A program made the translations under genes and the position numbers. From Croceivirga sp. (GTDB lineage Bacteria; Bacteroidota; Bacteroidia; Flavobacteriales; Flavobacteriaceae), in NCBI GenBank assembly GCA_028284285.1, contig JANQSA010000085.1, forward strand, positions 62,001 to 126,000: 64,000 nt of DNA, in the 5' to 3' direction. This document shows, in pieces, positions 21,496 through 44,897 of the stretch. How positions within the stretch are numbered: position 1 is the first letter of the stretch; the number at the start of each line of letters is the position of its first letter. The notes under the pieces are model-generated. The model saw only the letters and a program-made list of their open reading frames with translations, ran no database searches and was not told the origin of the DNA.

Positions 21496-21537
21496 CTCAA
21501 CATACTAAATTATTTATGTTATTTGTATGTAGTTGAG

Positions 21538-22098
21538 ATGGACAATAGTGTCAAGTATACCATAGAATTTTTAGCTGAGGGTATTAAAAACTCGGATGAG
21601 AAATCTTTTAATACCTTAATAGATGTGTTGTGGGAACCTATGATGCGGTATGCTGCTTCAATTATTATGGACGATAACATCGCTAAAGATTTAGTGCAAG
21701 ATGTTTGGGCAGATTATTGGCAACGAAGGCAAAACATAAATGTTGGGGACATTAAGGCCTATCTCTACAAAGCAATACGCTATCGTTGCTATAATCATTT
21801 TCGGGACAAAAAATTTAACGAAACGCAACTGGAAGCAGCCCATTCTGTTTTCGTCACCCCGGATGTAGAACGACACCAGGATGTTATTGAGTTGTCTGAT
21901 TGGATAAACAGGACAATCGAAAACCTGCCCAAAAGATGTCAAGAGGTTTTTAAACTTAGCCGGGTCAACGATATCAATAATGTAGAAATTGCAAAGCAGC
22001 TCAATATATCCCAGCGTTCCGTTGAAAACCAGATATCCCTGGCACTCCGAAAACTTCGAAAGGATCTAACCACCGTAAGACTTTTTTCTTTCCTCTAG
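21538..22098 (+). CDS. ECF-type RNA polymerase sigma factor (Bacteroidota sigma-70 family)
   Basis: A 186-aa ECF sigma factor. Region 2 (about 20-90) contains AKDLVQDVWADYWQRR, the -10 recognition and core-binding part. Region 4 (about 120-175) contains LPKRCQEVFKLSR and the helix-turn-helix NNVEIAKQLNISQRSVENQI. A TTG at 21523 would add five residues; ATG 21538 fits homologues. It is followed after 119 bp by fecR and then a SusC with an STN domain, the standard set for cell-surface signalling. The expected target is the susC promoter downstream. Confidence 0.93.
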   Translation: MDNSVKYTIEFLAEGIKNSDEKSFNTLIDVLWEPMMRYAASIIMDDNIAKDLVQDVWADYWQRRQNINVGDIKAYLYKAIRYRCYNHFRDKKFNETQLEAAHSVFVTPDVERHQDVIELSDWINRTIENLPKRCQEVFKLSRVNDINNVEIAKQLNISQRSVENQISLALRKLRKDLTTVRLFSFL

Positions 22099-22217
22099 CT
22101 GTCCAGCTTTATCTTAAGGTTAACAAAAAATGCCCTTCTTTAAGGGATCATTAAGTCTTCATTTTTTCGTGTGCGTGGTGAAGTGCTTTTGTTACTTGGT
22201 ATTGTAAGACATATACA

Positions 22218-23174
22218 ATGACCGAAAAAGACGTCAAAAAATTAATGCAAAAATACCTCGATGGTACGATAACAGAAGTAGAGGAAAGACGCTTAGAGCA
22301 ATTCGATGGTATTCTTTTATCAAAAAACAACAAAATTGATTTCAAAAGCGAAAGCCATAAGGCAAGTGTAAAGCAAAATCTTTCTCGAATCATTCGTAAA
22401 AGTGTTAAAACCAAACCCCGATACAAGTGGTTACGAATTGCCGCTTCTTGGGCATTGCTTGTGGGTTTGGGCATTGTGGTCTATAACTGGTCAAAAAGTG
22501 TTAACCCACCAAAGCCCGTTCCCGAAATTGTAGAGCGAACGGAATGGGGCCAAAAATTGAATGTGACCCTCGGGGATGGAACCCGGGTTATTTTGAATTC
22601 GGGAAGTACCCTGTGTTTTCCGGAACGTTTTGAAGGAGATTCCAGAGCAGTTGAACTTGTAGGTGAGGCATTTTTTGAGGTTGTCAAAAACAAGGACAAA
22701 CCTTTTTTGATCAAAACGGCAGCCCTTACTACTACAGTGTTGGGAACATCTTTTAACATCAATGCCTATCCGGATGAAGCGGAAATAGCGGTCACGCTGG
22801 CTACAGGAAAAGTCAAGATTGCCTCGGCAGATAGTACGGTTTATATTAACCCCAATGAACAAGCCGTCTTCAACACTTCGACTAAAACCTTAAACACTTT
22901 CCAAGTGGAAATTAATCCCTATATCGATTGGAAAAACGGGATCATTCATATTAACGATGCTACTCTCGCGGAGACTGCTGATATCCTTAGACGATGGTAT
23001 GGTGTTGACTTCGTTTTTGAAAATGAAAGATTAGCGCACTGTCATATCACGGCCACCTATGATAATCAGACGCTAGCGACCGTATTGGAAAGTATTAAAC
23101 ATGTAAAAAAGGGATTGGGATACGAATATTTGGAAGACAATAGCATTCTGATTACCGGAAGTTGTAAAGATTAA
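22218..23174 (+). CDS. FecR-family anti-sigma factor
   Basis: A 318-aa inner-membrane protein: a cytoplasmic N-terminal part (1-72) that would hold the sigma factor, one transmembrane helix (about 76-94), the FecR domain (about 112-210, with GDGTRVILNSGSTLCFPERF) and a C-terminal DUF4974/STN-like domain (about 245-315). It receives the signal from the STN domain of the neighbouring SusC receptor and releases the ECF sigma factor. Size and domain order are normal. Confidence 0.93.
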   Translation: MTEKDVKKLMQKYLDGTITEVEERRLEQFDGILLSKNNKIDFKSESHKASVKQNLSRIIRKSVKTKPRYKWLRIAASWALLVGLGIVVYNWSKSVNPPKPVPEIVERTEWGQKLNVTLGDGTRVILNSGSTLCFPERFEGDSRAVELVGEAFFEVVKNKDKPFLIKTAALTTTVLGTSFNINAYPDEAEIAVTLATGKVKIASADSTVYINPNEQAVFNTSTKTLNTFQVEINPYIDWKNGIIHINDATLAETADILRRWYGVDFVFENERLAHCHITATYDNQTLATVLESIKHVKKGLGYEYLEDNSILITGSCKD

Positions 23175-23229
23175 AACCCAACTAAACTAAATCACAAAAA
23201 GCCTATGAGATAAAAAAACGCAAAAAAGA

Positions 23230-23277
23230 GGCAGTCTGTAACACTTTGGCGAGCGGCAACAGACTGCCGACAGTCTG
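23230..23277 (+). promoter_or_regulatory. Hairpin with alternative pairing in the fecR-susC gap
   Basis: GGCAGTCTGT (23230-23239) pairs perfectly with ACAGACTGCC (23259-23268). A third segment, CAGTCTG (23271-23277), can pair instead with CAGACTG (23260-23266). The middle segment can therefore pair with either flank, a switch-like layout. It lies 43-90 bp before the susC ATG. No T-run follows the first stem; CAGTCTG is followed by AAAATTATAAAT. Confidence 0.6.
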
Positions 23278-23319
23278 AAAATTATAAATAATTATAACCA
23301 TCAAACATTATGTGAAATT

Positions 23320-26300
23320 ATGAATTCGCTAACTATTAAACAATTTATCAAGTTGACATTCAGTACATTTTGCTTTCTAGTACTCCTGGCGCTTTTGAAC
23401 CCCGCACTGGCTGCAGATGCGAGAGGGCAAAAATTGGAAACTTTCAAAGTAGACCTGGCTGTAAAAGATGCTTCGGTTATTGAAGTTTTAAAAGAAATTG
23501 AATCCCAGACCGACTTCAACTTTGTGTATGACCGAAAGGTAAAGCGCCTTGGCAACAAATATGATATTGAATACGAAAATGTTTCGTTACGCTCTGTTTT
23601 AGAGCTCATGGCGAAAGATGCCAACCTTATTTTTAGAAGAATCAATGAAACTATTTCCATTGATGTACGACCAAAAACTCCCAAAATACCGGTTGTTGAA
23701 ATAGCTTTTAAGACGGTCACCGGTACTGTAACCGATCAGGATGGTATACCCTTACCGGGCGCTTCTGTTGTTGAAAAGGGAACGCTCAATGGAACAACCA
23801 CTGATTTTAACGGCAATTTTACCATTGATGTAGCCGATGACGCTGTTCTTGAAATTTCATATATAGGTTATGCTACCCGGGAAGTGTCGGTACAAGGCCT
23901 TTCTACGGTATCGATTCAATTGGTACAAGATTCCACGCAACTTGACGATGTTGTGGTTGTGGGCTATGGGATTCAAAAAAAATCCGACATAACAGGTGCT
24001 ATTGGTTCTGTACAGAGTGAAGATTTTAATAAAGGGGTTGTGGCCAATCCCGGCCAACTTCTACAGGGTAAAGTAGCCGGTGTTAATGTAACGAATGTAA
24101 GTGGTGAGCCCGGAGCGGCACAGAATATTATTATCAGGGGTGTTGGGAGTCTACGAGCCGGTACCACCCCGCTCTTTGTAGTAGACGGTTTTATCATTGA
24201 TAACTCCGGTATTGGTGTCGCAGCTACAGCTAATCCCTTAAATTTTATCAACCCACAGGACATCGAATCAATTAATGTTTTGAAAGATGCTTCGGCTACG
24301 GCCATCTATGGTGCCCGTGCGGCAAATGGTGTCATTGTTATCACCACTAAAAAAGGAAAAGCCGGTAAAACGGAAATGAATTTAAACGTATCCACGGCCT
24401 TTTCCACTATTGCCAACCCTATGGATGTTTTTAGCGCCAATGAATTTAGAGAGCAGGTTGTTGCCGTAGGCGGTATACTGGAAGACTTCGGCGGCAATAC
24501 GGATTGGCAGGACGCGCTGACCCGAACTGCTGTTTCCAACAATGTCAATTTCTCCATGAGTGGTGGGGTAGCGGAGAAGTCCTCCTATTTTGTATCCGTA
24601 GGTGTGGATGATCAGGAAGGTATCTTGGACAATAGTTCCCTAACCCGGTACTCCGGGCGCGTGAACCTCAACCAAAAGGCGCTTGACGGACGTTTTAATG
24701 TGGATTTGAATCTCACAGCTTCCAGGACTGTTAATGAACGTCCCGATGATCGGAATATAGTACAGGAAATGCTGGAATTGAATCCTACCATACCTGTTTT
24801 TACCGATGGAGAACCTACCTTTTTGGAAGAACGAATCAATCCTGTTCAGCGCAATCGGATCTTTACGGACGAAGCCAATACCAACCGGATTCTGGCTAAC
24901 ATTTCGCCCTCACTTGAAATCGTTAAGGGATTGGTCTATAAATTGAATCTGGGGGTAGATTATTCTTCTACCAACCGCGATGTGCAGCGATTGCCCTTTC
25001 CACGATTGGAAAACTTTGAAGACGGCTTTTTAAATACTACGGCAACGATCAATACCAATACCCTGGTTGAAAATACATTGACCTATACCCTATCCAGGGA
25101 TAAGCACAATTTCACCCTGTTGGCCGCGCATTCCTATCAGCAAACAAGATTGGAGCGAAAAACTTTTGAACTGGACGGGTTTGCCGATAATGGGATCGAA
25201 CCAAGGTTCCAGGACCAGATCAGTACGGAAGAATTGCCCTCCAGATTGGATGCCAGGGCATTTGAAACGGAACTACAGTCCTTTTTTGGGCGGGTTAACT
25301 ATTCCTATGACGATAAATATTTGTTTACAGCCACCATGCGGGCAGATGGGTCTTCCCGTTTTGGGGAAAACAATAAATATGGGTACTTCCCTTCCGTGGC
25401 ATTGGGCTGGAACATTAACAACGAAGATTTTATGGCCAACAATACATTGTTCAGCAATTTAAAGTTACGGGCAAGCTGGGGCCAGGCAGGAAATCAAGAT
25501 GGAATTCCAAGTAATGTGAGTTTGGCGAGTTTTGAGGATTCCCGGGACAACACCGAGACCTACCCCCTGGATGGAGATGAAGTGACCCTGGATGATTATC
25601 CCTTTGGCACCGTCCCGGTACGTACTGCCTTTCCGGATCTTAAATGGGAAGTATCTACACAGACCAATATTGGTGTGGATTTTGGTCTTCTTGGAAACCG
25701 GATTACCGGTACCCTGGATTATTTTAACAAAGTGGTCACGGATGTGGTTCTTTTTGCACCCCGTACCGACCCGATTCAACCTACGGAAAGAATCTGGCTC
25801 AATGTTCCTGACATGGAAATTATCAACAATGGTATTGAATTTGCTCTGGATTACCGGGGGATGATCAGTGAGGACTTTAGCTTTAACATTGGGGGTAATA
25901 TCGCTTACACCGATAACAAAATAGAAAATTCTCCCTATTCAGTATTAACCTCAGGAGCCGCAAGAGGTGCCGGTCAGACCGGTGCTACAATAAACGGTTA
26001 TATCAATGGGGAACCTGCGGGGACATTCTTTATGAAAGAATTTATAGGGATCGGTGAGGATGGCTTAAATGAATTCAGGGATGTGAACGGGGATGGCCAA
26101 TCCCTGGACAATGATCGTATCGCAGTAGGCAGTGCCTTACCGGACATTATCTATGCCTTCTATTTGAATTTCAACTATCGGGATTTTGATTTGAGTTTCA
26201 ATTTTAACGGGGTTGCAGGAAATGAGATATACAACCATACGGCCATGACCATATTTTCCAATAGCCAATTGAGCAGAAACCTGAACACCACTGATTTTGC

Positions 26301-26619
26301 CATTCAATTTCCCAATGAGGATCTCAGCAATTCCAATGAGGTGTCTACCCGTTACCTGGAAGATGGCAGTTTCTTACGATTGAACAATGCCACCCTGGGC
26401 TATAATCTTAATCCTGAAAAAATTGGTTTGGGCGAATGGGTGAATAACTTCCGCTTTACGTTAACCGGACAAAACCTCTTTGTAATCACGGATTATTCAG
26501 GCTTTGATCCCGAAATCAATACGGGCGACGAGATTGATGATATTCAGACCTTTGGGATTGATCGTTTTACCTTTCCCGCACCCAGAACCTTGTTACTAGG
26601 CTTAAATGTATCGTTTTAA
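23320..26619 (+). CDS. SusC/RagA TonB-dependent receptor with STN signalling domain
   Basis: A 1099-aa outer-membrane receptor. In order: signal peptide (about 1-32, ending LNPALAADA), STN domain (about 50-110), carboxypeptidase-regulatory-like domain (about 132-205, PLPGASVVEKGTLNGTTTDF), TonB plug (about 215-330, with the SusC motif DASATAIYGARAANGVI) and the beta-barrel to the C-terminal Phe. The STN domain marks it as a transducer for the upstream FecR/sigma pair. Together with the SusD 17 bp downstream it forms a lidded importer. The substrate is not readable from sequence, but the downstream phosphatases suggest a phosphorylated compound. Confidence 0.95.
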   Translation: MNSLTIKQFIKLTFSTFCFLVLLALLNPALAADARGQKLETFKVDLAVKDASVIEVLKEIESQTDFNFVYDRKVKRLGNKYDIEYENVSLRSVLELMAKDANLIFRRINETISIDVRPKTPKIPVVEIAFKTVTGTVTDQDGIPLPGASVVEKGTLNGTTTDFNGNFTIDVADDAVLEISYIGYATREVSVQGLSTVSIQLVQDSTQLDDVVVVGYGIQKKSDITGAIGSVQSEDFNKGVVANPGQLLQGKVAGVNVTNVSGEPGAAQNIIIRGVGSLRAGTTPLFVVDGFIIDNSGIGVAATANPLNFINPQDIESINVLKDASATAIYGARAANGVIVITTKKGKAGKTEMNLNVSTAFSTIANPMDVFSANEFREQVVAVGGILEDFGGNTDWQDALTRTAVSNNVNFSMSGGVAEKSSYFVSVGVDDQEGILDNSSLTRYSGRVNLNQKALDGRFNVDLNLTASRTVNERPDDRNIVQEMLELNPTIPVFTDGEPTFLEERINPVQRNRIFTDEANTNRILANISPSLEIVKGLVYKLNLGVDYSSTNRDVQRLPFPRLENFEDGFLNTTATINTNTLVENTLTYTLSRDKHNFTLLAAHSYQQTRLERKTFELDGFADNGIEPRFQDQISTEELPSRLDARAFETELQSFFGRVNYSYDDKYLFTATMRADGSSRFGENNKYGYFPSVALGWNINNEDFMANNTLFSNLKLRASWGQAGNQDGIPSNVSLASFEDSRDNTETYPLDGDEVTLDDYPFGTVPVRTAFPDLKWEVSTQTNIGVDFGLLGNRITGTLDYFNKVVTDVVLFAPRTDPIQPTERIWLNVPDMEIINNGIEFALDYRGMISEDFSFNIGGNIAYTDNKIENSPYSVLTSGAARGAGQTGATINGYINGEPAGTFFMKEFIGIGEDGLNEFRDVNGDGQSLDNDRIAVGSALPDIIYAFYLNFNYRDFDLSFNFNGVAGNEIYNHTAMTIFSNSQLSRNLNTTDFAIQFPNEDLSNSNEVSTRYLEDGSFLRLNNATLGYNLNPEKIGLGEWVNNFRFTLTGQNLFVITDYSGFDPEINTGDEIDDIQTFGIDRFTFPAPRTLLLGLNVSF

Positions 26620-26636
26620 TAAAAATTGTGTAAAAA

Positions 26637-28394
26637 ATGAAAAATAGAATCGTAATTGCAACACTGGCTTTTTGCTCCTTATTACATTGGAACTGTACCG
26701 ATCTGGAAGAAGTACGCCTGGATGAATCTGAATTCGGGGGCCAGGCGGAACCCGTTAGCGGGGTCATTGCTCCTGCTTATGGCTACGTATCCGAGGTTTG
26801 GCTGCATACCCGCAATTTTGGTCTCCAGATTATAGCCTCGGATGAGGGTATCCTTCCCTTTCGCGGGGGGACGGACTGGTTTGACGGCGGTAAGTTTATT
26901 GCTGTACATCAACATTCCACCACCCCTACCAATGAATTGGTAGGACAGACCTGGGACGAGGTGACGATCAACATTTCCAGAACCCTGGCTGCCATTGAGG
27001 TATTGACCCCTTTGGCAGAAAGCGGTGATACAGAGGCAGAAGGGGCCCTTCATGAAATGCGGGCTTTAAGGGCCTACCTCAATTTGTTGATGTTGGACAG
27101 TTGGGGATTGGTTCTTAGGAAAGAGTCTTCTCCCGAGCAGTCCGAAGTATTAAGGGCCCAGGAGGCCATAGACTATATCGAAAGTGAATTGTTGGCCGTG
27201 GTAGATGTCATTAACACCAATAGAGGTCCGGGCAGAATGACCCAGGCAGCCGTTTGGGGGCTTTTGGCGCGGTTACACCTGAACGCGGCGGTATACCGTG
27301 ATCCCTACGGCACCCCTGATTTTAGCCAGGAGGATATGAATGCAGTCATCCAGTATACGGATAATATCATCAATTCCGGAAATTTTGCTTTATCGCTTGA
27401 ATATTTTGATCTCTTCAATGATGATAACAACAGCAATCCGGAACTCATCTTTGCCCTGGACCAACGCGGTCAGTTGGAAGATGAGCACAGCAGATGGGCC
27501 TATTGGTCCATTTCCGGGGATATGTTCCCAAGACCGGAATTTCCGAGAGCAGATGGAACGGATGCAACAGCCTTTACCTCGGATTTTATTCAGACCTGGT
27601 TCGACGCCTATGACCCTATTGACCCTGCTGAAGCCGATGCAAGGTTCTATCAGCAAAATACGATAATTCCGGATGTGCAATTACAAGACTTTGAAAACCG
27701 GGAAAAGTTGATAGCGACGGAGACTGAAAATAGTTTTTATTGTATCGATCCGGATGATTTTGAAATGGATAGAGGCATTCTACGAGGCATTCAATGGGGG
27801 GCCCGAAAAGGTGAAGATGGCGCATTCCTTACCTGTGCTGGAGGCCAGGTACGGATTTACCCGGTCCAACTAACCAGGGGAAGCGGTCCGGACGTGTTTA
27901 CAGGGTATGTGAATCATACCCTGGAGATAGATTTTACCGCAGAAGGTTCGCTGCATAACACCGGCCACCGCTGTTCCAAGTACCAATTCAGCCGCACCTC
28001 CCCGGACGGAAATGACTTAAGCAGTGTGGATTTGGTATTAATGCGTTTGGCGGAGATCTATCTCATGCGTGCCGAGGCCAAATTGCGAAATGGTGAAGCC
28101 GCCGGAGCTTTGGCGGATGTAAATACCGTTAGAACTTCAAGAACCGCACGACCAGAACAAACCCCGGAAGCCTTAACCACTATGGATTTGGATATTTTGT
28201 TCCGTGAACGTGGCTTTGAGTTATACTGGGAAGGCTTCAGGAGGAGCGACCAGATCCGCTTTGGTAAATTTGAAGATTCCTGGACCGAAAAAACCAGTAC
28301 TGACGTTAATAAAAGACTGTTCCCCATTCCGCAAAGCGCAGTAGACGCTGCATCCGGTATTGATGGTTTCCTGGAGCAAAATCCAGGATATTAA
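26637..28394 (+). CDS. SusD/RagB-family surface nutrient-binding lipoprotein
   Basis: A 585-aa SusD-like protein with a lipoprotein-type start (CSLLHWNC, Cys about 20). It has the TPR-like helical core with ALHEMRALRAYLNLLMLDSWG near residue 138 and the usual ending (ERGFELYWEGFRRSDQIRFG near 520, then FLEQNPGY). It acts as the lid and ligand receptor on the SusC barrel encoded 17 bp upstream. A strong hairpin follows the gene, so much of the transcript probably ends there. Confidence 0.95.
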   Translation: MKNRIVIATLAFCSLLHWNCTDLEEVRLDESEFGGQAEPVSGVIAPAYGYVSEVWLHTRNFGLQIIASDEGILPFRGGTDWFDGGKFIAVHQHSTTPTNELVGQTWDEVTINISRTLAAIEVLTPLAESGDTEAEGALHEMRALRAYLNLLMLDSWGLVLRKESSPEQSEVLRAQEAIDYIESELLAVVDVINTNRGPGRMTQAAVWGLLARLHLNAAVYRDPYGTPDFSQEDMNAVIQYTDNIINSGNFALSLEYFDLFNDDNNSNPELIFALDQRGQLEDEHSRWAYWSISGDMFPRPEFPRADGTDATAFTSDFIQTWFDAYDPIDPAEADARFYQQNTIIPDVQLQDFENREKLIATETENSFYCIDPDDFEMDRGILRGIQWGARKGEDGAFLTCAGGQVRIYPVQLTRGSGPDVFTGYVNHTLEIDFTAEGSLHNTGHRCSKYQFSRTSPDGNDLSSVDLVLMRLAEIYLMRAEAKLRNGEAAGALADVNTVRTSRTARPEQTPEALTTMDLDILFRERGFELYWEGFRRSDQIRFGKFEDSWTEKTSTDVNKRLFPIPQSAVDAASGIDGFLEQNPGY

Positions 28395-28423
28395 TATAGT
28401 AGTTAGTTTGAGTTAGTTTATCT

Positions 28424-28461
28424 AAAAGGGCGGTACCCTGGAGAGGTTAGCCGCCCTTTTT
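28424..28461 (+). terminator. Intrinsic terminator after susD
   Basis: AAAAGGGCGG (28424-28433) pairs perfectly with CCGCCCTTTT (28451-28460), with a 17-nt loop and a T-run. It lies 30 bp after the susD stop and 25 bp before the phosphoesterase gene. It should lower, but not necessarily abolish, readthrough into the phosphatase genes. Confidence 0.85.
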
Positions 28462-28485
28462 ATTGGTCTTACCAAAGTTTAAGGG

Positions 28486-30435
28486 ATGTCGTCTTCATTT
28501 TTAAAATTGTCAGGGGTAATTTTTGCTTGTGTCTCACTACAGGCCCTGCTATTACTCTCCTGTAAAACAGCAAACACTTCCAGTACACCGATCCAAATAG
28601 CCTTCATGGCCGACGTACACCTGCTGGATGTATACGGGGAATTGAAGGATATTGGTTACCAGGGCGTGGAATTCGGAAATGGTAAAAAAGCCCTTGTCCG
28701 CACCATGGATGCCCAAATGCGTTCTACCCGACTGTTCAACGAGAATTATTTGGCCTTTTTGTCCGCATTGGATGAGGTGGTAAAAAGAGGGATAAAACAT
28801 GTGGTGCTGCCCGGTGATTTTAGTGATGATGGACAACCCTTGAATCTACGAGGATTAAACCAAATTTTGGAGGACTATTCGGAAAACTATGGCATTTCTT
28901 TTTTTGCCATTACGGGAAACCACGATCCTACCCGGCCTTTTGGGGACAAGGGGGGTAAATGGGATTTCTTAGGCAAAAATGGCAAAGCGCAACCCATTTT
29001 AAGTGAGCCCCATTGGCATAGTATCGATTCCATAATGGAACATCCCCCTTTACTAAGTTCAGACATTAGGGAGGCCGGGTATAAAGAGATCATGGATATA
29101 CTGGGGGATCAGGGGTTTTTTCCCAAAGAGGAATATCTCTTTTGGGCCACTCCCTTTTCCAAATACAGGTATGAGGAGTATTCTATATCACAAGCCCATG
29201 AAGCCGCTGCATTTGAACAACGGCACTATACCATCGGCCCGTCCAACATGGGGTTACCTGACGTGAGTTACGTAGTGGAGCCTATTCAGGATGTTTGGCT
29301 ACTGGCCATAGATGCCAATGTTTATCTTCCCAAAGGGGATGGGAAGGAATTTCATGGTTCCGGTATTGGCTATAACCGCGTGGTAAAGCATAAAAAGTAT
29401 TTGATCAGATGGGTGGATCAAATGGTAAAGGAAGCCCACCGCTTGAACAAAACCTTGATTGCGTTTAGCCATTATCCCATGGTGGGTTTTAACGATGGTG
29501 CTTCCAAAGAAATACGAAAGTTTTTTGGGGATACCGCTTTTCAATCCCATCGGGTTCCGGATGAAATGGTATCCGAGATATTGGCAGATACGGGGTTGAA
29601 GATCCATCTGGGTGGCCACATGCACCTCAATGATACCGGAATCCATACGACCAAGGAGGGCAATACGCTAATCAACATACAAATACCTTCATTGGCAGCC
29701 TATCCCCCGGCATTTAAGGTCATGACTATTTACGACACGGAGGCTTTAGCGATTGAAACCGTTGTTTTGGATTCTGTTCCTGGTTTCGATAGTTTTTTTG
29801 ATCTGTACAGAAGGGAACATTCCTTTTTATTGGAACAGGAATCTGAAAATATCTGGGATGATGGGATCCTGGACTCAAAAACGTATTACGAGTATACCTA
29901 TAACCATCTACAAAATCTGGTGCACCTACGCTTTTTGCCAAAGGAATGGCCGGCAGGACCTAAAAGGATATTGACCACACTCACAGGACATCAGTTACTG
30001 GCACTCTCGCATATAGACAAAAGGTTTAATTCCAAGGAGTTGGAAAAGGTCTTGCAAGGTGATGAAAGTGACCCGGCCTGGCAAACGGCGCTTGCTATGG
30101 CTGAGACACAGATCATTGAAAATAACCTCAAAGTGGATGACTTTAAAAGCTGGAAAGGGGATACCTTTATTTTGGGGTTGTATACATTGCGAAATGCTGA
30201 CAAAATTGCCTTAAAAGACATTGGACCCCACCGTATTGACCAGTATCGCTTAATAGCAGAATCCATGCTACGGAACCGGGAATCCGAAGTATTGGAACCC
30301 TTAAAACTATTTGTCACCATTTTTGAAAAACAACTCAAGGGTGCCCCGGCGGCTAACTTTTACGTGGATTTGATCAAAGGCCAGATAACGCCAATGACCC
30401 ACAAGGACCTGATTGAGAAAAAGGAAACCAAATAG
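28486..30435 (+). CDS. Calcineurin-like metallophosphoesterase lipoprotein
   Basis: A 649-aa exported phosphoesterase. The signal peptide ends in a lipobox (LLLSC, Cys 26). The catalytic domain (about 36-420) shows the full set of metal ligands: ADVH (D43, H45), GDFSDDG, GNHD, AFSHYP and GGHMH. The C-terminal 200 residues are helical and unassigned. It should hydrolyse phosphomono- or diesters at the outer membrane or in the periplasm. It is followed 13 bp later by a GDPD-like/alkaline phosphatase gene, so the two form a phosphate-releasing pair behind SusCD. Confidence 0.88.
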   Translation: MSSSFLKLSGVIFACVSLQALLLLSCKTANTSSTPIQIAFMADVHLLDVYGELKDIGYQGVEFGNGKKALVRTMDAQMRSTRLFNENYLAFLSALDEVVKRGIKHVVLPGDFSDDGQPLNLRGLNQILEDYSENYGISFFAITGNHDPTRPFGDKGGKWDFLGKNGKAQPILSEPHWHSIDSIMEHPPLLSSDIREAGYKEIMDILGDQGFFPKEEYLFWATPFSKYRYEEYSISQAHEAAAFEQRHYTIGPSNMGLPDVSYVVEPIQDVWLLAIDANVYLPKGDGKEFHGSGIGYNRVVKHKKYLIRWVDQMVKEAHRLNKTLIAFSHYPMVGFNDGASKEIRKFFGDTAFQSHRVPDEMVSEILADTGLKIHLGGHMHLNDTGIHTTKEGNTLINIQIPSLAAYPPAFKVMTIYDTEALAIETVVLDSVPGFDSFFDLYRREHSFLLEQESENIWDDGILDSKTYYEYTYNHLQNLVHLRFLPKEWPAGPKRILTTLTGHQLLALSHIDKRFNSKELEKVLQGDESDPAWQTALAMAETQIIENNLKVDDFKSWKGDTFILGLYTLRNADKIALKDIGPHRIDQYRLIAESMLRNRESEVLEPLKLFVTIFEKQLKGAPAANFYVDLIKGQITPMTHKDLIEKKETK

Positions 30436-30448
30436 CAATAGTACTGCC

Positions 30449-32230
30449 ATGAAATTATGTATCATACTGTTTCTTACCATGTCGCTTTGTGCGTGGTCCC
30501 AGCATGCAGAGAAACGGAAGGAAATCACCTATAAAGTGCATTCCCATAACGATTACCAACAGGGATTTCCATTTTGGAACGCCTATATCAATGGAGCTGC
30601 CTCTATTGAGGTGGATATATTTCTCAAAAAAGACAGCTTGTATGTGGCACATGGGGAGCATGAAATTATCAAGGGGAACACCTTGGAAAAGCTTTATTTG
30701 GATACGTTACAGCGATTGTCGGCATCCAATGATCTTCGGGAATTACAATTGCTGGTGGATATCAAGTCAGAAGCCTATACTACACTGGACAAATTAATTG
30801 AAGTTCTCGAAAACTATCCCGTCCTGCAGAAAAGTGGTAAAATCCATTTTGTGATTTCGGGGAATCGGCCCAAACCAGGGGATTATACCAACTACCCGGA
30901 TTTCATCCGGTTTGACCATCAGGATTTGAGTAACCTTAATACTATACCGCTGGAAAAAGTAGCACTCGTTAGTCTTGATTTTAAACGGTATTCTGTTTGG
31001 AATGGGTATGGACGCCTGGTGGAATCTGAATGGGAAGCGGTAAAACGTATCGTTAAAAAAGTCCACAGTTTCAACAAGCCCTTCAGGTTTTGGGCAACAT
31101 CAGATACGAAAACGGCCTGGGCCCGTTTGGCCCAACTTGGGGTGGACTTTATCAATACCGATAAGCCGGAACGGGCCGTACCCTTTTTAAACCAAATGGA
31201 GGGTAATACTCACCGGCAAGAAGCACCAATAGCGACCTATTTGCCTGAGTACGATTACCCTAAAGAAGCCCAACCCAAAAATGTGATATTGATGATAGGG
31301 GATGGCAATGGCCTTGCCCAAATAACAGCATCTCTGATTGCTAATCATGGACAACTTACGGTTATGGGCATTAAGGATATAGGCTTAGTGAAAACCGCTG
31401 CTTATGATGACCTTATTACGGATTCGGCTGCAGGAGCAACTGCTATGGCCACAGGTTCCAAAACGGACAACCGTGCCATTGGTGTTGGTCCAAATGGAGA
31501 AAGATTGCAAAACCTGGTTGAACTGACCAGTGAAAAAGGCTTTAATACGGGCATTGTAACAACCGATGCCATTTATGGCGCAACACCGGCAGCGTTCTAT
31601 GCACATAGAAAGGAACGGGATGATAGCCGGGGAATTTTGGAAGATCTGATCAGCAGTGAACTTGATTTGTTTATAGCAGGAGGCCGGTCAAAAGAGGTAA
31701 TACTCCAAAAAAACTTTAAAATAGTAGAACTGGAACAACTTACTGATCTGGAACAACCCGTAGCGATCTTCTTGGGTGAAAATAAAACTCCACCTCCGAA
31801 CCAGGACGACAGTTACCCCCTATCTAAAAGTGTACAACATGCTCTAAAGGTTTTGGATAAAAAGAAGGAACCCTTTTTCCTGGTGATCGAGGGCGCCAAA
31901 ATAGATAGCGGAGGCCATGCAAATGATATTGAAAAGATCATTGGGGAAATGCTTGATTTTGATCAGGCCATCGCCGAAGCTCTTCGCTATGCGGATACCT
32001 CTGAAAATACATTGGTGGTCGTAACTGCAGATCACGAAACCTCGGGTCTTGGTATCATCGCAGGAGATATACAAGGAGGTACTGTGCAAGTAGATTTTCT
32101 TACGGTGGACCATACCGGAATTCCGGTACCTCTTTTTGCCTACGGACCTCAGGCACATACTTTTGGTGGTAGCTATGAGAATACGGAAATTTTCGAGAAA
32201 ATAATAGGGGTGCTGTTTCATGAGGAGTGA
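30449..32230 (+). CDS. GDPD/PI-PLC-like domain fused to alkaline phosphatase
   Basis: A 593-aa secreted two-enzyme protein, counted from ATG 30449, which begins the signal peptide (KLCIILFLTMSLCAWSQ). An upstream in-frame start at 30413 would hide it. Residues about 28-245 resemble a glycerophosphodiester phosphodiesterase/PI-PLC barrel (HSHNDY, IEVDIF, VAHG). Residues about 270-593 are an alkaline phosphatase with the metal Asp in MIGDGNG (D285), the nucleophile Ser in TDSAAGATA (S326), KIDSGGHAND and ADHETSG. The order suggests cleavage of a phosphodiester followed by release of phosphate from the monoester. Confidence 0.87.
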   Translation: MKLCIILFLTMSLCAWSQHAEKRKEITYKVHSHNDYQQGFPFWNAYINGAASIEVDIFLKKDSLYVAHGEHEIIKGNTLEKLYLDTLQRLSASNDLRELQLLVDIKSEAYTTLDKLIEVLENYPVLQKSGKIHFVISGNRPKPGDYTNYPDFIRFDHQDLSNLNTIPLEKVALVSLDFKRYSVWNGYGRLVESEWEAVKRIVKKVHSFNKPFRFWATSDTKTAWARLAQLGVDFINTDKPERAVPFLNQMEGNTHRQEAPIATYLPEYDYPKEAQPKNVILMIGDGNGLAQITASLIANHGQLTVMGIKDIGLVKTAAYDDLITDSAAGATAMATGSKTDNRAIGVGPNGERLQNLVELTSEKGFNTGIVTTDAIYGATPAAFYAHRKERDDSRGILEDLISSELDLFIAGGRSKEVILQKNFKIVELEQLTDLEQPVAIFLGENKTPPPNQDDSYPLSKSVQHALKVLDKKKEPFFLVIEGAKIDSGGHANDIEKIIGEMLDFDQAIAEALRYADTSENTLVVVTADHETSGLGIIAGDIQGGTVQVDFLTVDHTGIPVPLFAYGPQAHTFGGSYENTEIFEKIIGVLFHEE

Positions 32231-32344
32231 TTTTTTGGAGATTCTTAGGGTATTCTTAGTCTATTGCTTAAGATTTCCTAACCCCTGAAAAAATTAAAAG
32301 TTTATTTATATTCAAAAAAAGTATTCTTTATCGACTTAATTTTT

Positions 32345-32360
32345 AATATTGGTAAATAAT
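32345..32360 (+). promoter_or_regulatory. 16-bp motif before the DUF5690 gene, shared with the regulator/pbfA region
   Basis: AATATTGGTAAATAAT ends 5 bp before the ATG at 32366. The same motif with one difference occurs at 36185-36200 between the XRE-cupin regulator and the PLP-enzyme gene. Its 16-bp core (from TTGAATATTTG) recurs there in inverted orientation at 36313-36328. Sharing between two transcription units of one pathway suggests a common operator. Confidence 0.5.
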
Positions 32361-32365
32361 TATCA

Positions 32366-33658
32366 ATGACTTTCTTTAAAAAACGCAATGATATCACCTT
32401 TGTGCTGCATGCTTCCTTAGCGGCGTTCGGAACCTATTTCTGTATGTATGCGTTTAGAAAGCCATTCACCGTTGGCACCTTTGAAGCCCTTACTTTTTTG
32501 GGCGTTGATTACAAAATCCTTTTGGTAATTTCCCAGGTCTTAGGGTATGCGTTGTCAAAATTCATTGGCATTACATTTATTTCAGAGCTAAAGTCTTCCA
32601 AACGACTATTCTACCTTTTCATATTGATTGCAATGGCGGAAGTGGCCCTGGTCCTCTTTGCGGTTGTACCAAAGCCCTACAATATTGTATTGCTTTTTTT
32701 TAACGGATTGCCCTTGGGGATGATTTGGGGGATTGTATTCTCTTTTTTGGAGGGCAGAAGGTTTACAGACATTTTGGGGGTGGTTTTATCTTCAAGTTTT
32801 ATCGTATCAAGCGGGGTGGTCAAATCAGTTGGTCTTTATGTGATGCACCATTGGGGGGTTGATGAGTTTTTAATGCCTGCGATAACGGGCCTGCTCTTTG
32901 TGGTACCTCTATTGTTATTTGGTTGGTGGTTGGGCAAAGTACCTCCCCCCACAGAAGAGGATAAAAAATTAAGGGTTGAGCGGATTCCCATGACCAAAAG
33001 CGATAGAAAACGTTTGGTGAAACAATACTTTTTTGCACTCTTTATTTTGGTCTTTTTCTACACGCTATTGACTGCTTTTAGGGATTTCAGGGACAATTTT
33101 GCGCGGGAACTTTGGGACAGTATCGGGTATAAAGGTGATGTCTCGGTGTATTCCACATCTGAAATCAGTATTGCCCTGGTAGTTTTGGTGATCATAGGAT
33201 TGGTTTTTTACATAAAAAATAACGTAAAGGCATTGTTTGCGTATCATCTGTTATTGATCCTGGGAACGGTAGTCCTTGCTTTTTCCACCTTGCTTTTTCA
33301 AACAAAACTTTTAAATTCCTTTGCCTGGATGGTATGCACAGGCTTTGGATTGTATATCTGTTATGTGCCGTTCAACTGCCTCTTTTTTGACCGTTTTATT
33401 GCTGCGTTCAAGATTAAGGGGAATTCCGGTTTTTTAATTTATATCGCAGATGCATTTGGTTATGCAGGAAGTATTCTGGTACTGCTCTATAAAAATTTTG
33501 GGCAGGCATCGCTCTCCTGGCTGAATTTCTTTGTTTATGGCACTTATATTGTGGCTGTTACAGGCACCTTAATAACGGCCGTTTCGTATTTCCATCTGAA
33601 GAAAAAGCATCGTATAATGAATTTTGAAAACAACCTGGTTCATGGAAAAAAGATTTGA
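32366..33658 (+). CDS. DUF5690 family MFS-like membrane protein
   Basis: A 430-aa polytopic protein with about 12 transmembrane segments, matching DUF5690 in its start (TYFCMYAFRKPFTVGTFE) and in a central cytoplasmic loop rich in Lys/Arg (about 205-215). The motif YAFRKPF resembles the first helix of organophosphate:phosphate antiporters of the major facilitator superfamily. That is suggestive given the neighbours, but not proof. It overlaps the oxidoreductase gene by 17 bp, so it is coupled to aminophosphonate-type enzymes and is the best candidate for their inner-membrane uptake. Confidence 0.78.
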   Translation: MTFFKKRNDITFVLHASLAAFGTYFCMYAFRKPFTVGTFEALTFLGVDYKILLVISQVLGYALSKFIGITFISELKSSKRLFYLFILIAMAEVALVLFAVVPKPYNIVLLFFNGLPLGMIWGIVFSFLEGRRFTDILGVVLSSSFIVSSGVVKSVGLYVMHHWGVDEFLMPAITGLLFVVPLLLFGWWLGKVPPPTEEDKKLRVERIPMTKSDRKRLVKQYFFALFILVFFYTLLTAFRDFRDNFARELWDSIGYKGDVSVYSTSEISIALVVLVIIGLVFYIKNNVKALFAYHLLLILGTVVLAFSTLLFQTKLLNSFAWMVCTGFGLYICYVPFNCLFFDRFIAAFKIKGNSGFLIYIADAFGYAGSILVLLYKNFGQASLSWLNFFVYGTYIVAVTGTLITAVSYFHLKKKHRIMNFENNLVHGKKI

Positions 33659-34796
33659 TGTCATTGTTATTGGGGGTGGAGTTTTAGGAACCTTCCATGC
33701 CTATCACGCCCTTCTAAAAGGATATAAGGTTTGCCTGGTAGAGAAAGATCGAATGCCAAAGGGGGCCACCACCCAAAACTTTGGTCAGGTAGTTCCCTCC
33801 GGAATGGATTCCAAATGGCAGAAGTTGGGTCGGGAATCCCTGCGAATCTACAAGGAGATCCAGTCAAAATTTGATATTTCAATTCGTCAGCAGGGTACGG
33901 TTTATCTGGCATCCGATGATGATGAAGAACGCTTATTGGTTGAATTGCGCAGCCTGAACAATGATAATGGGTATCCCTCAAGGATGCTTACCAAAAAAGA
34001 GTGCCTTACAAAATATCCCGGACTAAGAAATGATTATGTAACCGCAGGCTTATTTTTTCCGGAAGAGGTAACCGTTGAACCCCGTATCATGATCCATCGA
34101 TTACAACACTACATGGTGGAAGCTTTGGATTTGGTTTTTAAGACCAATTTTTTAGTTGTGGATTGTGTCAAAAACAATGATGGCGTAGAAGTGGTGAGCA
34201 CTACCCATGAACATTTAAAGGCCCATACCGTGATTATTTGTAATGGTGCAGATTTTAAAAATCTGTATCCTACCCTATTTTGGCAAAGCGATTTAGAGGT
34301 TACCAAACTACAGATGATGCAGACCAAACCTCAAAACAACTTTGAATTGAAGGGCTCCGTTTTAACCGGCTGGTCTATTAGAAGGTATGAAGCGTTCAGA
34401 GAATGTCCCTCCTATTTCGAAGTAAAATCCAAAGAGTCGGGTGATTCGCTGCAAAAAAAATGGGGAGTCCATATTTTGTTTAAGCAAGCTACTGATGGTT
34501 CCGTTATTATTGGGGACTCCCATGAGTATGCCGATGTCATGAACATGGATGATCTGGGTTTCGATATTAATGTGGATATTGATACTTTTATCCTCCATGA
34601 GGCCCAAAAGATCTTTAACCTCCCTACCTACAAAATACAAAACAAATGGTATGGTATCTACGCGCAATGTAAGACCCAGGACGTTTTTCAAAAGACCATT
34701 GATGGTAATATTCATATAGTTACCGGGATAGGAGGGAAAGGTATGACGGGAAGTGCCGGTTTTTCAAAAAATAATATTGCAACCCTACTTAATTGA
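33642..34796 (+). CDS. TIGR03364-type FAD-dependent oxidoreductase of phosphonate clusters
   Basis: A 384-aa DAO-fold flavoprotein, starting at ATG 33642 just before the Rossmann motif DVIVIGGGVLGTFHA. ATTQNFGQVVPSG (about 38-50) and the C-terminal GIGGKGMTGSAG are typical of the TIGR03364 family. Family members occur next to phosphonate genes, and related recurrent flavoenzymes oxidise N-methyl-aminoethylphosphonate or aminoethylphosphonate to phosphonoacetaldehyde. The next gene is a phosphonatase-like hydrolase, which fits. Substrate specificity is inference. Confidence 0.82.
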   Translation: MEKRFDVIVIGGGVLGTFHAYHALLKGYKVCLVEKDRMPKGATTQNFGQVVPSGMDSKWQKLGRESLRIYKEIQSKFDISIRQQGTVYLASDDDEERLLVELRSLNNDNGYPSRMLTKKECLTKYPGLRNDYVTAGLFFPEEVTVEPRIMIHRLQHYMVEALDLVFKTNFLVVDCVKNNDGVEVVSTTHEHLKAHTVIICNGADFKNLYPTLFWQSDLEVTKLQMMQTKPQNNFELKGSVLTGWSIRRYEAFRECPSYFEVKSKESGDSLQKKWGVHILFKQATDGSVIIGDSHEYADVMNMDDLGFDINVDIDTFILHEAQKIFNLPTYKIQNKWYGIYAQCKTQDVFQKTIDGNIHIVTGIGGKGMTGSAGFSKNNIATLLN

Positions 34797-34806
34797 TCAC
34801 GAAATA

Positions 34807-35484
34807 ATGAAAGGAATTGAATTGGCCGTTTTTGATATGGCCGGAACCACAGTCAATGAAAATAATGTAGTATATAAAACGGTTCAAAAATCATTAAAAG
34901 ATGCTGGTTATGAGGTATCCCTTGAGATGATTTTGGAACATGGTGCAGGTAAGGAAAAGCGAAATGCAATTGCCCATATCATTGACTTGATCAGCATTAA
35001 GAAAGCTGAACCCCAATTGATTGATGAAATATTTGAAAGATTTAGAGACGAATTGAAATCGGCCTATGAGGATTTGGACATTACCAGTTATGATGGGGTT
35101 GAAGAACTCTTTGGGCTACTTAGGAACAAGGGGATAAAAGTGGTTTTAAATACGGGATATGACAAGAAAACTGCTCAAAAATTGCTTAAAAAACTAGGTT
35201 GGGAAATCGGTCGGGACATTGATGGTTTGATTACCGCCGATGACGTAAAAACAGGTCGGCCATCGGCCGAGATGATTGAACTGGCCATGGAAAGATTCTC
35301 AATTAAGGACGCTTCAAAAGTGCTTAAAGCAGGCGATTCCATTATTGATATTGAAGAGGGTAAAAATGCTAATTGCGGATTTACCATTGGGGTATTGACA
35401 GGAGCACAAACACGGGAACAGCTTTTGACCGCTGAGCCTACCCTAATCCTTGATAGCCTGGCGGAAATAAAGCAAGCGCTCTGA
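34807..35484 (+). CDS. Phosphonatase-like HAD hydrolase (TIGR03351 type)
   Basis: A 225-aa HAD-superfamily protein from ATG 34807, 10 bp after the oxidoreductase stop. Motif I is VFDMAGTTV (nucleophile Asp; phosphonatases have an AGT here), motif II is LNTGY, motif III is a Lys near KTGRPS and motif IV is AGDSIIDIEEG. This agrees with phosphonoacetaldehyde hydrolase-like proteins, which cleave the C-P bond. In true PhnX a cap-domain Lys forms a Schiff base; the candidate here is in HGAGKEKRNAI, but I cannot confirm it. The stop codon abuts that of the convergent regulator. Confidence 0.83.
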   Translation: MKGIELAVFDMAGTTVNENNVVYKTVQKSLKDAGYEVSLEMILEHGAGKEKRNAIAHIIDLISIKKAEPQLIDEIFERFRDELKSAYEDLDITSYDGVEELFGLLRNKGIKVVLNTGYDKKTAQKLLKKLGWEIGRDIDGLITADDVKTGRPSAEMIELAMERFSIKDASKVLKAGDSIIDIEEGKNANCGFTIGVLTGAQTREQLLTAEPTLILDSLAEIKQAL

Positions 35485-36051
35485 TCAGATAAAGAAATAG
35501 ATAACTAACATTTGGCAAGTGGCTTTTCCTTTATTCACAGGTACATGCGGTATTCTTCCATCAAAGAATATGGAATCTCCCTCATATAACACCACTTCCT
35601 GGTCTGCGATACTATAATGACATTCGCCGTTGAGCACATATTTAAGCTCAAAGGCATCAGTGGTTACCTTATCCCTTTTGGAACCGGGTTCCACTTTCAG
35701 TAACACACTTTGAAAACCAACGGAATTCAATGACTTTCCAAATAGATAGTTGTAGGTAAAACCAATAGCGTCATCTTCCTTTTCAATAATGTGGGAATCA
35801 TCTTTGCGGGCAATCAAAAAATTAGCTCCGTTGGCTATGGGAATACCATCAAAGAAATCCCTTAGTTCGGTTTCCAGGGCCTCCACTATTTTTAAAAAAA
35901 CGGGAAGGGAGGGTATGGTCCTACCATTTTCTATCCTGGAGATTAAGCCCGATGTTACTCCTGCCTTCAAAGCAATATCGCTAATAGTTCTTCGATTGCT
36001 TTTGCGTATTTCTTTGATTCTTTTCCCAATCCCAACCAGGTAATCCTCCAT
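35485..36051 (-). CDS. XRE-family regulator with cupin domain
   Basis: A 188-aa transcription factor: an HTH_3 domain (about 8-62, TISDIALKAGVTSGLISRIE) and a C-terminal cupin (about 110-185, VEPGSKRD, then LNGECHYSI and EGDSIFFDGRIPHVPVN). Such proteins usually sense a small metabolite through the cupin. It is convergent with the phosphonatase-like gene (the stops form TGATCA at 35482-35487) and divergent from the PLP-enzyme gene. It is therefore the likely local regulator of both flanking units. Confidence 0.9.
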   Translation of the reverse strand: MEDYLVGIGKRIKEIRKSNRRTISDIALKAGVTSGLISRIENGRTIPSLPVFLKIVEALETELRDFFDGIPIANGANFLIARKDDSHIIEKEDDAIGFTYNYLFGKSLNSVGFQSVLLKVEPGSKRDKVTTDAFELKYVLNGECHYSIADQEVVLYEGDSIFFDGRIPHVPVNKGKATCQMLVIYFFI

Positions 36052-36506
36052 TCTTCTTACGTATTTAGAATTTTACTTTTTGTAATGATTCAGTGTAATT
36101 GTTAAAATCGTATAATTGATTTAAGGTAGTGTTAAACAATAAAATAGTAACACTTCAACCGCGGACAAAATAATCAATATCTTGAATATTTGTAAATAAT
36201 GTTAAACTAACTTTTAGTCAATTGCTTAACCTAAAGCTTCATTTTTTTTAACACTAATAGCAGCCTGCCTTAAACTTCATATAAGATATTTGTTGATAAA
36301 TAATTAACCAATATTTACAAATATTCAAATAAAATAAAAAAAGCCCGGGGTTCGCATAGCTCGGCAAGCTTTGAGGGATGCTCCATGAAGCGTTTTTGAG
36401 AAGGGTAGTTCATGATAATACGATTTATCTGTTTTGTTCAATTTAGCGTGACAATGACCATAGGTGCTTTATTCCTATGGTCTTGTTCTTGCAAAACAAG
36501 GTCCAT
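36052..36506. promoter_or_regulatory. Regulatory region between the XRE-cupin gene and the PLP-enzyme gene
   Basis: A 455-bp AT-rich divergent gap. It contains a perfect 16-bp inverted repeat, TTGAATATTTGTAAAT at 36182-36197 and its complement at 36313-36328, 115 bp apart. Closer to the PLP gene are CATGAA/TTCATG (36384-36414), a perfect 9-bp hairpin GACCATAGG/CCTATGGTC (36456-36482) and CTTGTT/AACAAG (36482-36500). No exact TAnnTTTG box was found. The layout suits an autoregulated divergent promoter region. Confidence 0.6.
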
Positions 36507-37874
36507 ATGAATCACAATCAGATGGAGAAAAACATAGAACGCTTGGTTGAGGGGGATAGTAACCAATCCGAGGCAAGGAAAAACTGGTGGGCCTCAGAAA
36601 TTGATGATACTACCCGAGAGATTTTGGATAAGGATGCTCATAGTTTTATCCATCAGGCACTTTCCACCCCCTGTCTGGACGTGTTAAAACATTGTGAAGG
36701 GCCTTATATTCAAAATCTAAAGGGCAAAAAATATTTTGACTTTCATGGTAACAATGTACATCAAATAGGGTTTTCCCATCCCAAATTAGTGAGTTCCCTG
36801 GTGGGTCAGCTCCAAGAGCTGACGTTTTCTACACGTAGGTATACCAATGAAATAGTAGTACGTTTTGCCGAAAAATTGTTGGCTACGCTGCCCAATTCAC
36901 TCAACAAGTTGTTATTGACCCCAAACGGCAGTTCGGCTATAGGCATTGCACTGAAATTGGCCAGAGCGGTTACCCACAAACATAAAGTAATATCCTTTTG
37001 GGATTCGTTTCATGGGGCTTCCCTGGACGTGGCCAGTGTAGGTGGCGAAGCCATTTTTCTGGACCATATGGGGCCGGTGGCTACCTGGGCAGAGCGCATA
37101 CCACCGCCAATAAGCTACCGCGGTATTTTTGAGGATGATGGGGATAAAGCACTGCAATACCTGGAATATTTACTGACCAAAGACAACCAAATTGGCGCCT
37201 TTTTGGCCGAAACCATTAGAAATACAGATGTACAGATACCTTCGAAAACTTTTTGGCAAGAAGCCCGAAAATTATGTGATAAACATGGGATACTTTTGAT
37301 CCTGGATGAGATCCCTATTGCTTTTGGAAGAACGGGTACCATGTATGCTTTTGAACACTATGGTATAGAACCGGATATTTTGTGCCTGGGCAAAGGTCTC
37401 GGAGGGGGCATCATTCCGCAAGCCGCAGTAGTTGCGCGTTCAGAGTATGATCAATTCCAACACATATCATTAGGTCATTATACTCATGAAAAAAGCCCGT
37501 TAGGCGCAATGGCCGGTCTTACGGTCTTAGAAATTATTGAAGAAGAAAAACTTCTGAAGAAAGTAGCAAGGGATGAGGTTTTCATGCGAAATACGTTGCA
37601 TCGCTTTCAAAAGAAATTTAAACTTATCGGCGATGTCCGTGGTATAGGCCTGCTGTGGGGCCTGGAACTGGTGACCGATAGGAAAACAAAGAAAAAGGCA
37701 GTGCAGGAGGCAGAAGAAATAATGTACGATTGCCTGGCAAACGGGCTGAGCTTCAAGGTTTCCAAAGGAAACGTACTACAATTATCGCCTGCCTTAACCA
37801 TCTCAAGAAAAGAATTGGAAACAGCCCTTTCCATACTGAATGAATCCTTTTTAAAAATTAGCGCCATCGTTTAA
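36507..37874 (+). CDS. PLP-dependent class III aminotransferase-fold enzyme, PbfA-like
   Basis: A 455-aa fold-type I PLP enzyme. The PLP-binding features are TPNGSSAIGIALKLAR, ILDEIPIAFGRTG (cofactor Asp) and LCLGKGLGGG (Schiff-base Lys). The NWWASEIDD start and the phosphonate neighbours fit PbfA, (R)-1-hydroxy-2-aminoethylphosphonate ammonia-lyase, which makes phosphonoacetaldehyde. A true aminotransferase such as an aminoethylphosphonate transaminase remains possible. Start is ambiguous: ATG 36477 lies inside a perfect hairpin, and ATG 36522 is also possible; I chose 36507. Confidence 0.75.
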   Translation: MNHNQMEKNIERLVEGDSNQSEARKNWWASEIDDTTREILDKDAHSFIHQALSTPCLDVLKHCEGPYIQNLKGKKYFDFHGNNVHQIGFSHPKLVSSLVGQLQELTFSTRRYTNEIVVRFAEKLLATLPNSLNKLLLTPNGSSAIGIALKLARAVTHKHKVISFWDSFHGASLDVASVGGEAIFLDHMGPVATWAERIPPPISYRGIFEDDGDKALQYLEYLLTKDNQIGAFLAETIRNTDVQIPSKTFWQEARKLCDKHGILLILDEIPIAFGRTGTMYAFEHYGIEPDILCLGKGLGGGIIPQAAVVARSEYDQFQHISLGHYTHEKSPLGAMAGLTVLEIIEEEKLLKKVARDEVFMRNTLHRFQKKFKLIGDVRGIGLLWGLELVTDRKTKKKAVQEAEEIMYDCLANGLSFKVSKGNVLQLSPALTISRKELETALSILNESFLKISAIV

Positions 37875-44887: not shown

Positions 44888-44897
44888 AGTTGTGAGT

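Follow-up and report, generated by a model that had tools for sequence, protein, structure and literature searches.

SusC/SusD pairs mostly serve glycans, and a pair that stands among phosphatase and aminophosphonate genes raises the question of what it imports and whether it forms one system with its neighbours. We addressed this question for positions 21523-37874 of a 64,000-nucleotide stretch of Croceivirga sp. DNA (a marine member of the Flavobacteriaceae; assembly GCA_028284285.1, contig JANQSA010000085.1, positions 62,001 to 126,000), hereafter the window; its genome is G000, and its contig within it C39. A sequence-only reading had placed eleven genes here. An open reading frame check with Pfam and NCBIfam searches found every frame open, with the order and coordinates as claimed. 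Pfam found no glycoside hydrolase domain in any of the eleven proteins, in line with that reading, and no carbohydrate-active enzyme beside SusCD within 21523-37874, so that the locus does not qualify as a polysaccharide utilisation locus. We interpret it, with moderate confidence, as a compound phosphorus-scavenging locus that joins an import half similar to PUSII of Flavobacterium johnsoniae (module A, 21523-32230) to an aminophosphonate catabolic half that operates without PhnW (module B, 32366-37874).

Module B contains DUF5690, an inner-membrane permease candidate (32366..33658; PF18943, 553 bits, cut-off 25), a PbfD-type flavin adenine dinucleotide (FAD) oxidoreductase (33624..34796; TIGR03364, 395.9 bits, cut-off 285.1), a PhnX-like hydrolase (34801..35484; TIGR03351, 235.4 bits, cut-off 218.9), a divergent XRE-cupin regulator (35485..36051; PF01381, HTH_3, and PF07883, Cupin_2) and PbfA (36477..37874; NF049939, 684.5 bits, cut-off 525). 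The regulator lies on the reverse strand; all other features given here lie on the forward strand. The earlier assignment of this half to an aminophosphonate pathway was borne out by family membership. TIGR03364 has been linked to PbfD (PMC10590968; this and the other papers cited below are drawn on in excerpt), and the window protein both exceeds the TIGR03364 cut-off and adjoins a PhnX-family gene. The claimed phosphonatase-like HAD hydrolase held as a PhnX-like TIGR03351 protein and not as a true phosphonatase, since it reached 98.8 bits against TIGR01422, under the curated cut-off of 220. Among homologs of more than 40% identity, near full length and free of stops, its DxAGT, K51, K53, R153 and GDSxxD are conserved (97 sequences), as is K306 of PbfA (37 sequences). 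We take DxAGT, the cap-domain lysine and the arginine replacing the HAD lysine to denote a PhnX-type mechanism, and K306 is presumably the expected pyridoxal phosphate lysine. A pairwise alignment with Bacillus cereus PhnX aligned poorly in the cap region and was left unused.

The absence of PhnW is a recurrent feature of genomes with PbfD. In G000 no PhnW (TIGR03301) was found above the cut-off (best E 4.3e-12, 5/5 candidates scored). PbfD was above its cut-off in 32 of the 36 DUF5690 genomes examined (at most 38 candidates scored), and in 32 of 39 after the addition of G154, G408 and G028, chosen by hand for having parts of the locus and lacking DUF5690. PhnW exceeded its cut-off in 0/32 PbfD-positive and 5/7 PbfD-negative genomes (Fisher p 3.6e-5), or 3/4 of the latter when the three hand-picked genomes are set aside. 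The other two of the seven have neither gene; one of them, G090, has a different flavoenzyme near the place of PbfD (L254). In G028, PhnW adjoins a GlpT-like gene. This distribution points to PbfD as a substitute for PhnW, consistent with the PbfD2 idea put forward in PMC10590968. Like the PbfD2-type system for 2-aminoethylphosphonate (AEP) degradation described there, in which an FAD oxidoreductase takes the part of PhnW, the window has TIGR03364 beside a PhnX-family hydrolase and PhnW not over the cut-off. It differs in its TIGR03351 rather than TIGR01422 hydrolase, in DUF5690 as the permease candidate and in the link to SusCD and phosphoesterases. Reported pbfA clusters (PMC8154272, PMC12366243) likewise pair PbfA with a PhnX-family enzyme, whereas the partners named there are PhnW, PhnX, PhnY and PhnA, and both texts leave TonB unmentioned.

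DUF5690 exceeded its cut-off in 32 of 397 genomes from the family. Of 10 other genus members 4 have it, and so do 42 of the 395 genomes in a Bacteroidota sample; these counts are of the marker gene and not of the full cassette, and omit weak matches in G343 and G392. For gene order we used 80 DUF5690 loci, the top matches among 570 or more and thus biased to near relatives. Among the loci listed, the closest come from two Croceivirga metagenome-assembled genomes (MAGs; 91% and 87% identical). Homologs of PbfD and the PhnX-like hydrolase occur in 67/80 loci, with XRE-cupin as well in 62/80, and in 38/80 the regulator is followed directly by a second SusC, SusC2. We fetched 20 downstream regions, chosen from 35 loci in which a SusC or a cut end follows XRE-cupin or DUF5690. 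SusC2 adjoins XRE-cupin in 17 of these, and SusC2 and SusD2 both occur in 18. The usual order after SusCD2 is a phosphodiesterase (PF01663, PA14), an MBL-fold protein (13/20) or DAO flavoenzyme (2/20), and PbfA (18/20), after which there usually come a purple-acid-phosphatase-like gene and an alkaline-phosphatase-superfamily enzyme (Pfam, one member of each). SusD2 belongs to PF12771 and the SusD of module A (SusD-A) to PF07980, so these are different pairs. Thus the cassette often comes with a SusCD of its own that differs from the window's. The window SusCD had been read as the partner of the phosphonate enzymes; the usual partner in relatives is another pair, which the window lacks. SusD2 scored above 650 bits in 25 of the 397 genomes, 20 with and 5 without DUF5690. 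These high scores are partly by construction, as the profile (A1) was built from 22 of the 25 SusD2 found adjoining DUF5690; for both SusD2 and SusD-A, scoring took in the top 3 candidates of each genome, and the 650-bit and 718-bit limits were chosen after the scores were known. A MAG labelled Opitutaceae (L246) also has DUF5690 and PbfA; it shares the sample code IP29b with the Croceivirga MAG L176, and this is a transfer or a binning error.

How did the window come to lack SusCD2? Upstream of XRE-cupin, 29 SusC2 loci have both TATTTGTAAATA and the inverted repeat TATTTGT-N23-ACAAATA; in 26 of them the distance between the two is 101 nt. The inverted repeat is present in 35/38 loci where SusC2 adjoins XRE-cupin and in 0/26 where it does not. 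It occurs once in the 64 kb window (0.01 expected), at 36287-36323, 100 nt from TATTTGTAAATA at 36187. Both lie 5' of PbfA with SusC2 absent, within what appears to be a retained SusC2 promoter/operator region (36052..36336). This region aligned to the SusC2 promoter regions of two genus members: with G008 the score was 142, against at most 43.5 in 300 shuffles, and with G002 it was 142.5, against a shuffle maximum of 36.0. Two weaker stretches may be degenerate remnants: 36337..36430 of the SusC2 5' end (score 16.5, weak; reached by 0/1000 shuffles against G008 and 3/1000 against G002) and 37877..38000 of the purple-acid-phosphatase-like gene that lies 3' of PbfA in G008 (score 20.0; 1/1000 shuffles, in the G008 comparison only). 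At E 1e-60 no SusD2 was found in G000 (21/21 candidates scored). Because the promoter region is retained, weak remnants can be aligned, and SusD2 is missing from G000 while G002 and G008 have it, the window has most likely lost a SusC2-SusD2-phosphodiesterase-flavoenzyme segment as well as the phosphatase further downstream. XRE-cupin would presumably bind the repeat sites. Two further genomes, G005 (L042, contig C25) and G006 (L043, contig C34), have contigs of 8430 and 8437 bases that share both breakpoints, one at the end of SusC and one within the PhnX-like gene; PbfA (E 1e-100) and SusD2 (E 1e-60) were found in neither.

Module A encodes an extracytoplasmic function (ECF) sigma factor (21523..22098, ATG at 21538; Pfam/NCBIfam), a FecR-type anti-sigma factor (22218..23174; PF04773 and PF16344, FecR and FecR_C), SusC (23320..26619; TIGR04056, 775.8 bits, cut-off 368.25, and TIGR04057), a SusD lipoprotein (26637..28394; PF07980, SusD_RagB), a calcineurin-like metallophosphoesterase lipoprotein (28486..30435; PF00149, N-terminal lipobox by eye) and a PhoA1-like protein that fuses GDPD-like and alkaline phosphatase domains in one chain (30413..32230; PF13653, GDPD_2, and PF00245). 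SusC carries PF07715 and PF13715, with a weak PF16344 match (19.1 bits, cut-off 24.4). It had been described as a SusC with an STN domain; the SusC part stands, and the N-terminal STN-like signalling domain scored below the Pfam cut-off (20.9 against 28.4 bits). The residues D43, H45, D111, N145, H146, H329, H378 and H380 of the metallophosphoesterase are at least 97% conserved (16 sequences), and conservation in the fusion extends to H45, N46, D47, E66, D68 and H80 of the GDPD half and D297, S338, H502, D540 and H541 of the phosphatase half (30 sequences).

This composition resembles PUSII (Fjoh_3249-3252), described as Pi-induced (Pi, inorganic phosphate; PMC8115612), in which the same excerpts list FecR with PF04773 and PF16344, SusC with PF07715 and PF13715, SusD with PF07980 and PhoA with an extra PF13653. 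Of the features that mark a phosphate utilisation system (PUS) of the PUSII type, the window has a SusC-SusD pair adjoining phosphomono- and phosphodiesterases with no carbohydrate-active enzyme, a FecR-like regulator and a PhoA with PF13653. It also has an ECF gene (none is listed for PUSII in those excerpts), a metallophosphoesterase lipoprotein and, under a regulator of its own, the PbfD/PbfA/PhnX-like cassette. Since PMC8115612 states that PusCD complexes co-localise with phosphonate-degrading enzymes, the general idea of SusCD near such enzymes is already in print. New here are the conserved cassette, the PbfD/PhnW exclusion, the operator, the deletion and the possibly misassigned SusCD of Maribacter forsetii discussed below; some of it may already appear in Fig. 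6 of PMC8115612.

Overlaps and short gaps between genes suggest three blocks, ECF-FecR-SusC-SusD, metallophosphoesterase-GDPD-phosphatase and DUF5690-PbfD-PhnX-like, with XRE-cupin pointing the other way from the third and PbfA further on. Downstream of SusD, at about 28425-28461, inspection by eye showed a GC hairpin whose loop is long, together with a T run. A scan for promoter and terminator consensus, which does not cover long-loop hairpins, gave no surplus over shuffles (39 against 38.2 and 13 against 17.8). It is probably incorrect to read the stretch from 21523 to 37874 as a single regulatory unit, given that operator-like sites were found only at module B and the hairpin and T run follow SusD. 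The two halves appear to be separately controlled. Three AAAGTTTACA repeats with 20 nt spacing lie 5' of the ECF gene (21436-21485); the genus relatives L041, L044 and L177 show only the last. A Pho-box-like reading of these repeats was dropped, since the relatives have a single TTTACA-TAATAT element, which is more promoter-like.

We further characterized module A in relatives. SusD-A reached at least 718 bits in 34 of the 397 family genomes (profile search; A2 has 6 rows, G000 and G208 included). G162 and G404, in which the match is split in two, are excluded from the 34; G162 has DUF5690. DUF5690 is present in 15 of the 34 and in 17 of the remaining 363 (Fisher p 8e-10, kinship ignored). In 8 of the 15 genomes with both, the two genes are at most 26 kb apart; most of the 8 have one arrangement in common, probably by descent. 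SusCD-A has homologs of the GDPD-phosphatase or the metallophosphoesterase at its flanks in 28 of the 32 regions fetched. Among the genes matched, DUF5690 lies directly 3' of module A in Croceivirga (L177), Maribacter stanieri (L229) and M. caenipelagi (L243). In G907, of a third genus (L271), SusCD-A occupies the SusC2 position beside XRE-cupin, and no operator was found 5' of that SusC. In G154, which lacks DUF5690 and PbfD, module A is followed by PbfA and a purple-acid-phosphatase-like gene. The sequence-only reading was to fall if relatives conserved SusCD alone; this is not so, because SusCD and phosphorus genes also co-occur in other genomes. An A-type SusD of at least 623 bits is present in 11 of 121 genomes of one large genus. 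A second SusD family, scoring about 238-275 bits, has ECF and FecR alongside in two fetched regions (L267, L268). Either family may be the one to which PusD2 of F. johnsoniae belongs. Between modules B and A of L156-L159 and L161 stand, in conserved order, genes that were assigned by eye to a metallophosphoesterase (c12), a glycosyltransferase (c14) and a GH1-like protein (c13).

From the gene content and its conservation, the inverted repeat and the lack of detected PhnW and SusD2 in the genome, we infer the regulation, the substrates, the direction of transport and a supply of module B by SusCD-A as follows. A ligand would be sensed through SusC, FecR and the ECF factor, and SusD/SusC would bind and import organophosphorus molecules. 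On the surface and within the periplasm, the metallophosphoesterase lipoprotein and the GDPD-phosphatase fusion would cleave both phosphodiesters and monoesters, and DUF5690 would move the freed aminophosphonates inward. There PbfD may oxidise AEP or N-methyl-AEP, and PbfA may convert (R)-1-hydroxy-AEP, to phosphonoacetaldehyde, which the PhnX-like enzyme would split into acetaldehyde and phosphate. XRE-cupin would control module B via the divergent operator. The ancestral module B would have had its own SusCD2 and trimming enzymes, deleted here, so that PbfA would now stand behind the old SusC2 operator and module A would be left as the sole SusCD at the locus.

Several observations weigh against this interpretation. 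Two domains that the excerpts of PMC8115612 give for PusC2 (PF00593) and PusD2 (PF14322) were not found at E 0.001 in the window's SusC and SusD, and PF16344, which they also give for PusC2, matched SusC only below its cut-off, so that the likeness to PUSII in domains is incomplete. SusC matches are missing in 20 of the 80 DUF5690 loci (one has SusD-A; some contigs are short), from which small aminophosphonates may need no SusCD. SusD-A occurs without DUF5690 in 19 of the 34 genomes, which makes a purely phosphonate-importing A-type SusCD unlikely. The genomes are related, and counts of the shared arrangement are not independent events. No operator-like site was found at module A. A site with one mismatch just 5' of DUF5690 (32347..32358) is alone not beyond chance: the window has 3 sites with at most one mismatch against 1.10 expected, and 11/100 shuffles had at least 3. 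Such a site precedes DUF5690 in 25/80 loci against 124/4000 random stretches, a control that includes coding sequence and may understate the background in AT-rich gaps, and it is absent in the closest loci, L176 and L177. The window's DUF5690 protein did not match TIGR00881, which 3 of 52 relatives matched (best 2.5e-8), and hhalign of DUF5690 with a GlpT-like alignment was weak (probability 5.5%, E 0.0069). A control MFS family fared worse (0.7%, E 0.087), and hhalign placed the invariant RK of DUF5690 on the R-K of GlpT-like proteins.

DUF5690 is likely a permease. A mutant test identified the GlpT relative AepP as an AEP permease (PMC8316502); an AepP of the Bacteroidetes member Kriegella aquimaris is mentioned in passing in that paper. 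DUF5690, distantly similar to the organophosphate:Pi antiporter family, likely has the same role. We found no papers on DUF5690 in the open-licence PMC literature, and a PDB sequence search with its profile returned a single chance thioredoxin match (E 0.5).

Other explanations differ from the compound locus in what they let SusCD-A carry. It may carry phosphonate-bearing molecules, and a reading in which it does so specifically would have it import phosphonolipid head groups or phosphonate-decorated glycans, with the GDPD-phosphatase trimming them before aminophosphonate uptake. This draws on module A directly preceding DUF5690 in Croceivirga, M. stanieri and M. caenipelagi, on the G907 and G154 arrangements and on SusCD-A being the sole pair left after the loss of SusCD2. 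We consider it somewhat unlikely, given the genomes with SusD-A and no DUF5690 and the lack of an XRE-cupin site at module A. In addition, in 13/13 genomes with a comparable enzyme (of 14), SusC/SusD of module A are 54-86% identical to the window's and the adjoining phosphatases 44-61%, a pattern more in keeping with a single common class of ligand than with a niche phosphonate. The opposite view, that two independent phosphorus systems are mere neighbours in a genomic island, module A serving ordinary phosphodiesters and free aminophosphonates reaching DUF5690 via porins, is consistent with the separate control signals, with module A lying elsewhere in the genome in 7 of the 15 genomes with both, and with the cassette loci that show no SusC match. 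It is unlikely in our judgement, since the adjacency recurs in several arrangements and genera and since products of one such neighbourhood in M. forsetii were detected together (PMC11345257). A SusCD of that neighbourhood was proposed to import laminarin, which, together with the usual role of such pairs, speaks for a glycan utilisation locus with incidental phosphorus genes. The lack of glycoside hydrolase domains in the eleven proteins and the recurrent flanking phosphatases make this highly improbable here. The single substrate assumed by the sequence-only reading is possible.

Proteins detected from a single M. forsetii neighbourhood include the most raised SusCD together with an alkaline phosphatase, an FAD oxidoreductase and a phosphonatase-like hydrolase, the latter two enzymes in 2/3 replicates; the controls were carbon-limited casamino-acid cultures (PMC11345257). 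The neighbours of this SusCD (P177_RS04595/P177_RS04600), as given in the excerpts, are as in M. stanieri L229, and the neighbourhood would be the same locus as here. It may answer phosphorus demand, and the 'laminarin' SusCD may be a misassigned phosphorus SusCD. A broader proposal, which we put forward only tentatively, would recognise dedicated flavobacterial outer-membrane phosphonate utilisation loci, with the M. forsetii pair as a member. In these, SusCD would import aminophosphonate-bearing lipid or glycan fragments, phosphodiesterases of the surface and periplasm would free the head group and an oxidative PbfD/PbfA/PhnX-like route free of PhnW would release phosphate, one SusCD having been exchanged for another in the present lineage. 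If this holds, phosphonates enter Bacteroidota within larger molecules via SusCD, outside the ABC-transporter/C-P lyase picture of marine phosphonate cycling. The compound locus gives DUF5690 a testable role and suggests how PhnW-less bacteria could use AEP. It also carries a warning that SusCD proteins raised on sugars may reflect phosphorus demand and not the sugar.

Elsewhere in the window, a separate SusC/SusD locus at 43145-54141 has the look of an ordinary fructan-type system: it includes a GH32 enzyme and a hybrid two-component sensor whose periplasmic domain is of the sugar-binding kind. An RND efflux set (AcrB-like, HlyD-like and OEP) lies at 5678-13354 with an adjoining guanylate-cyclase-domain protein, and a single frame of 623 aa at 55125-56996 combines an N-terminal GNAT acetyltransferase with an alpha-amylase domain match.

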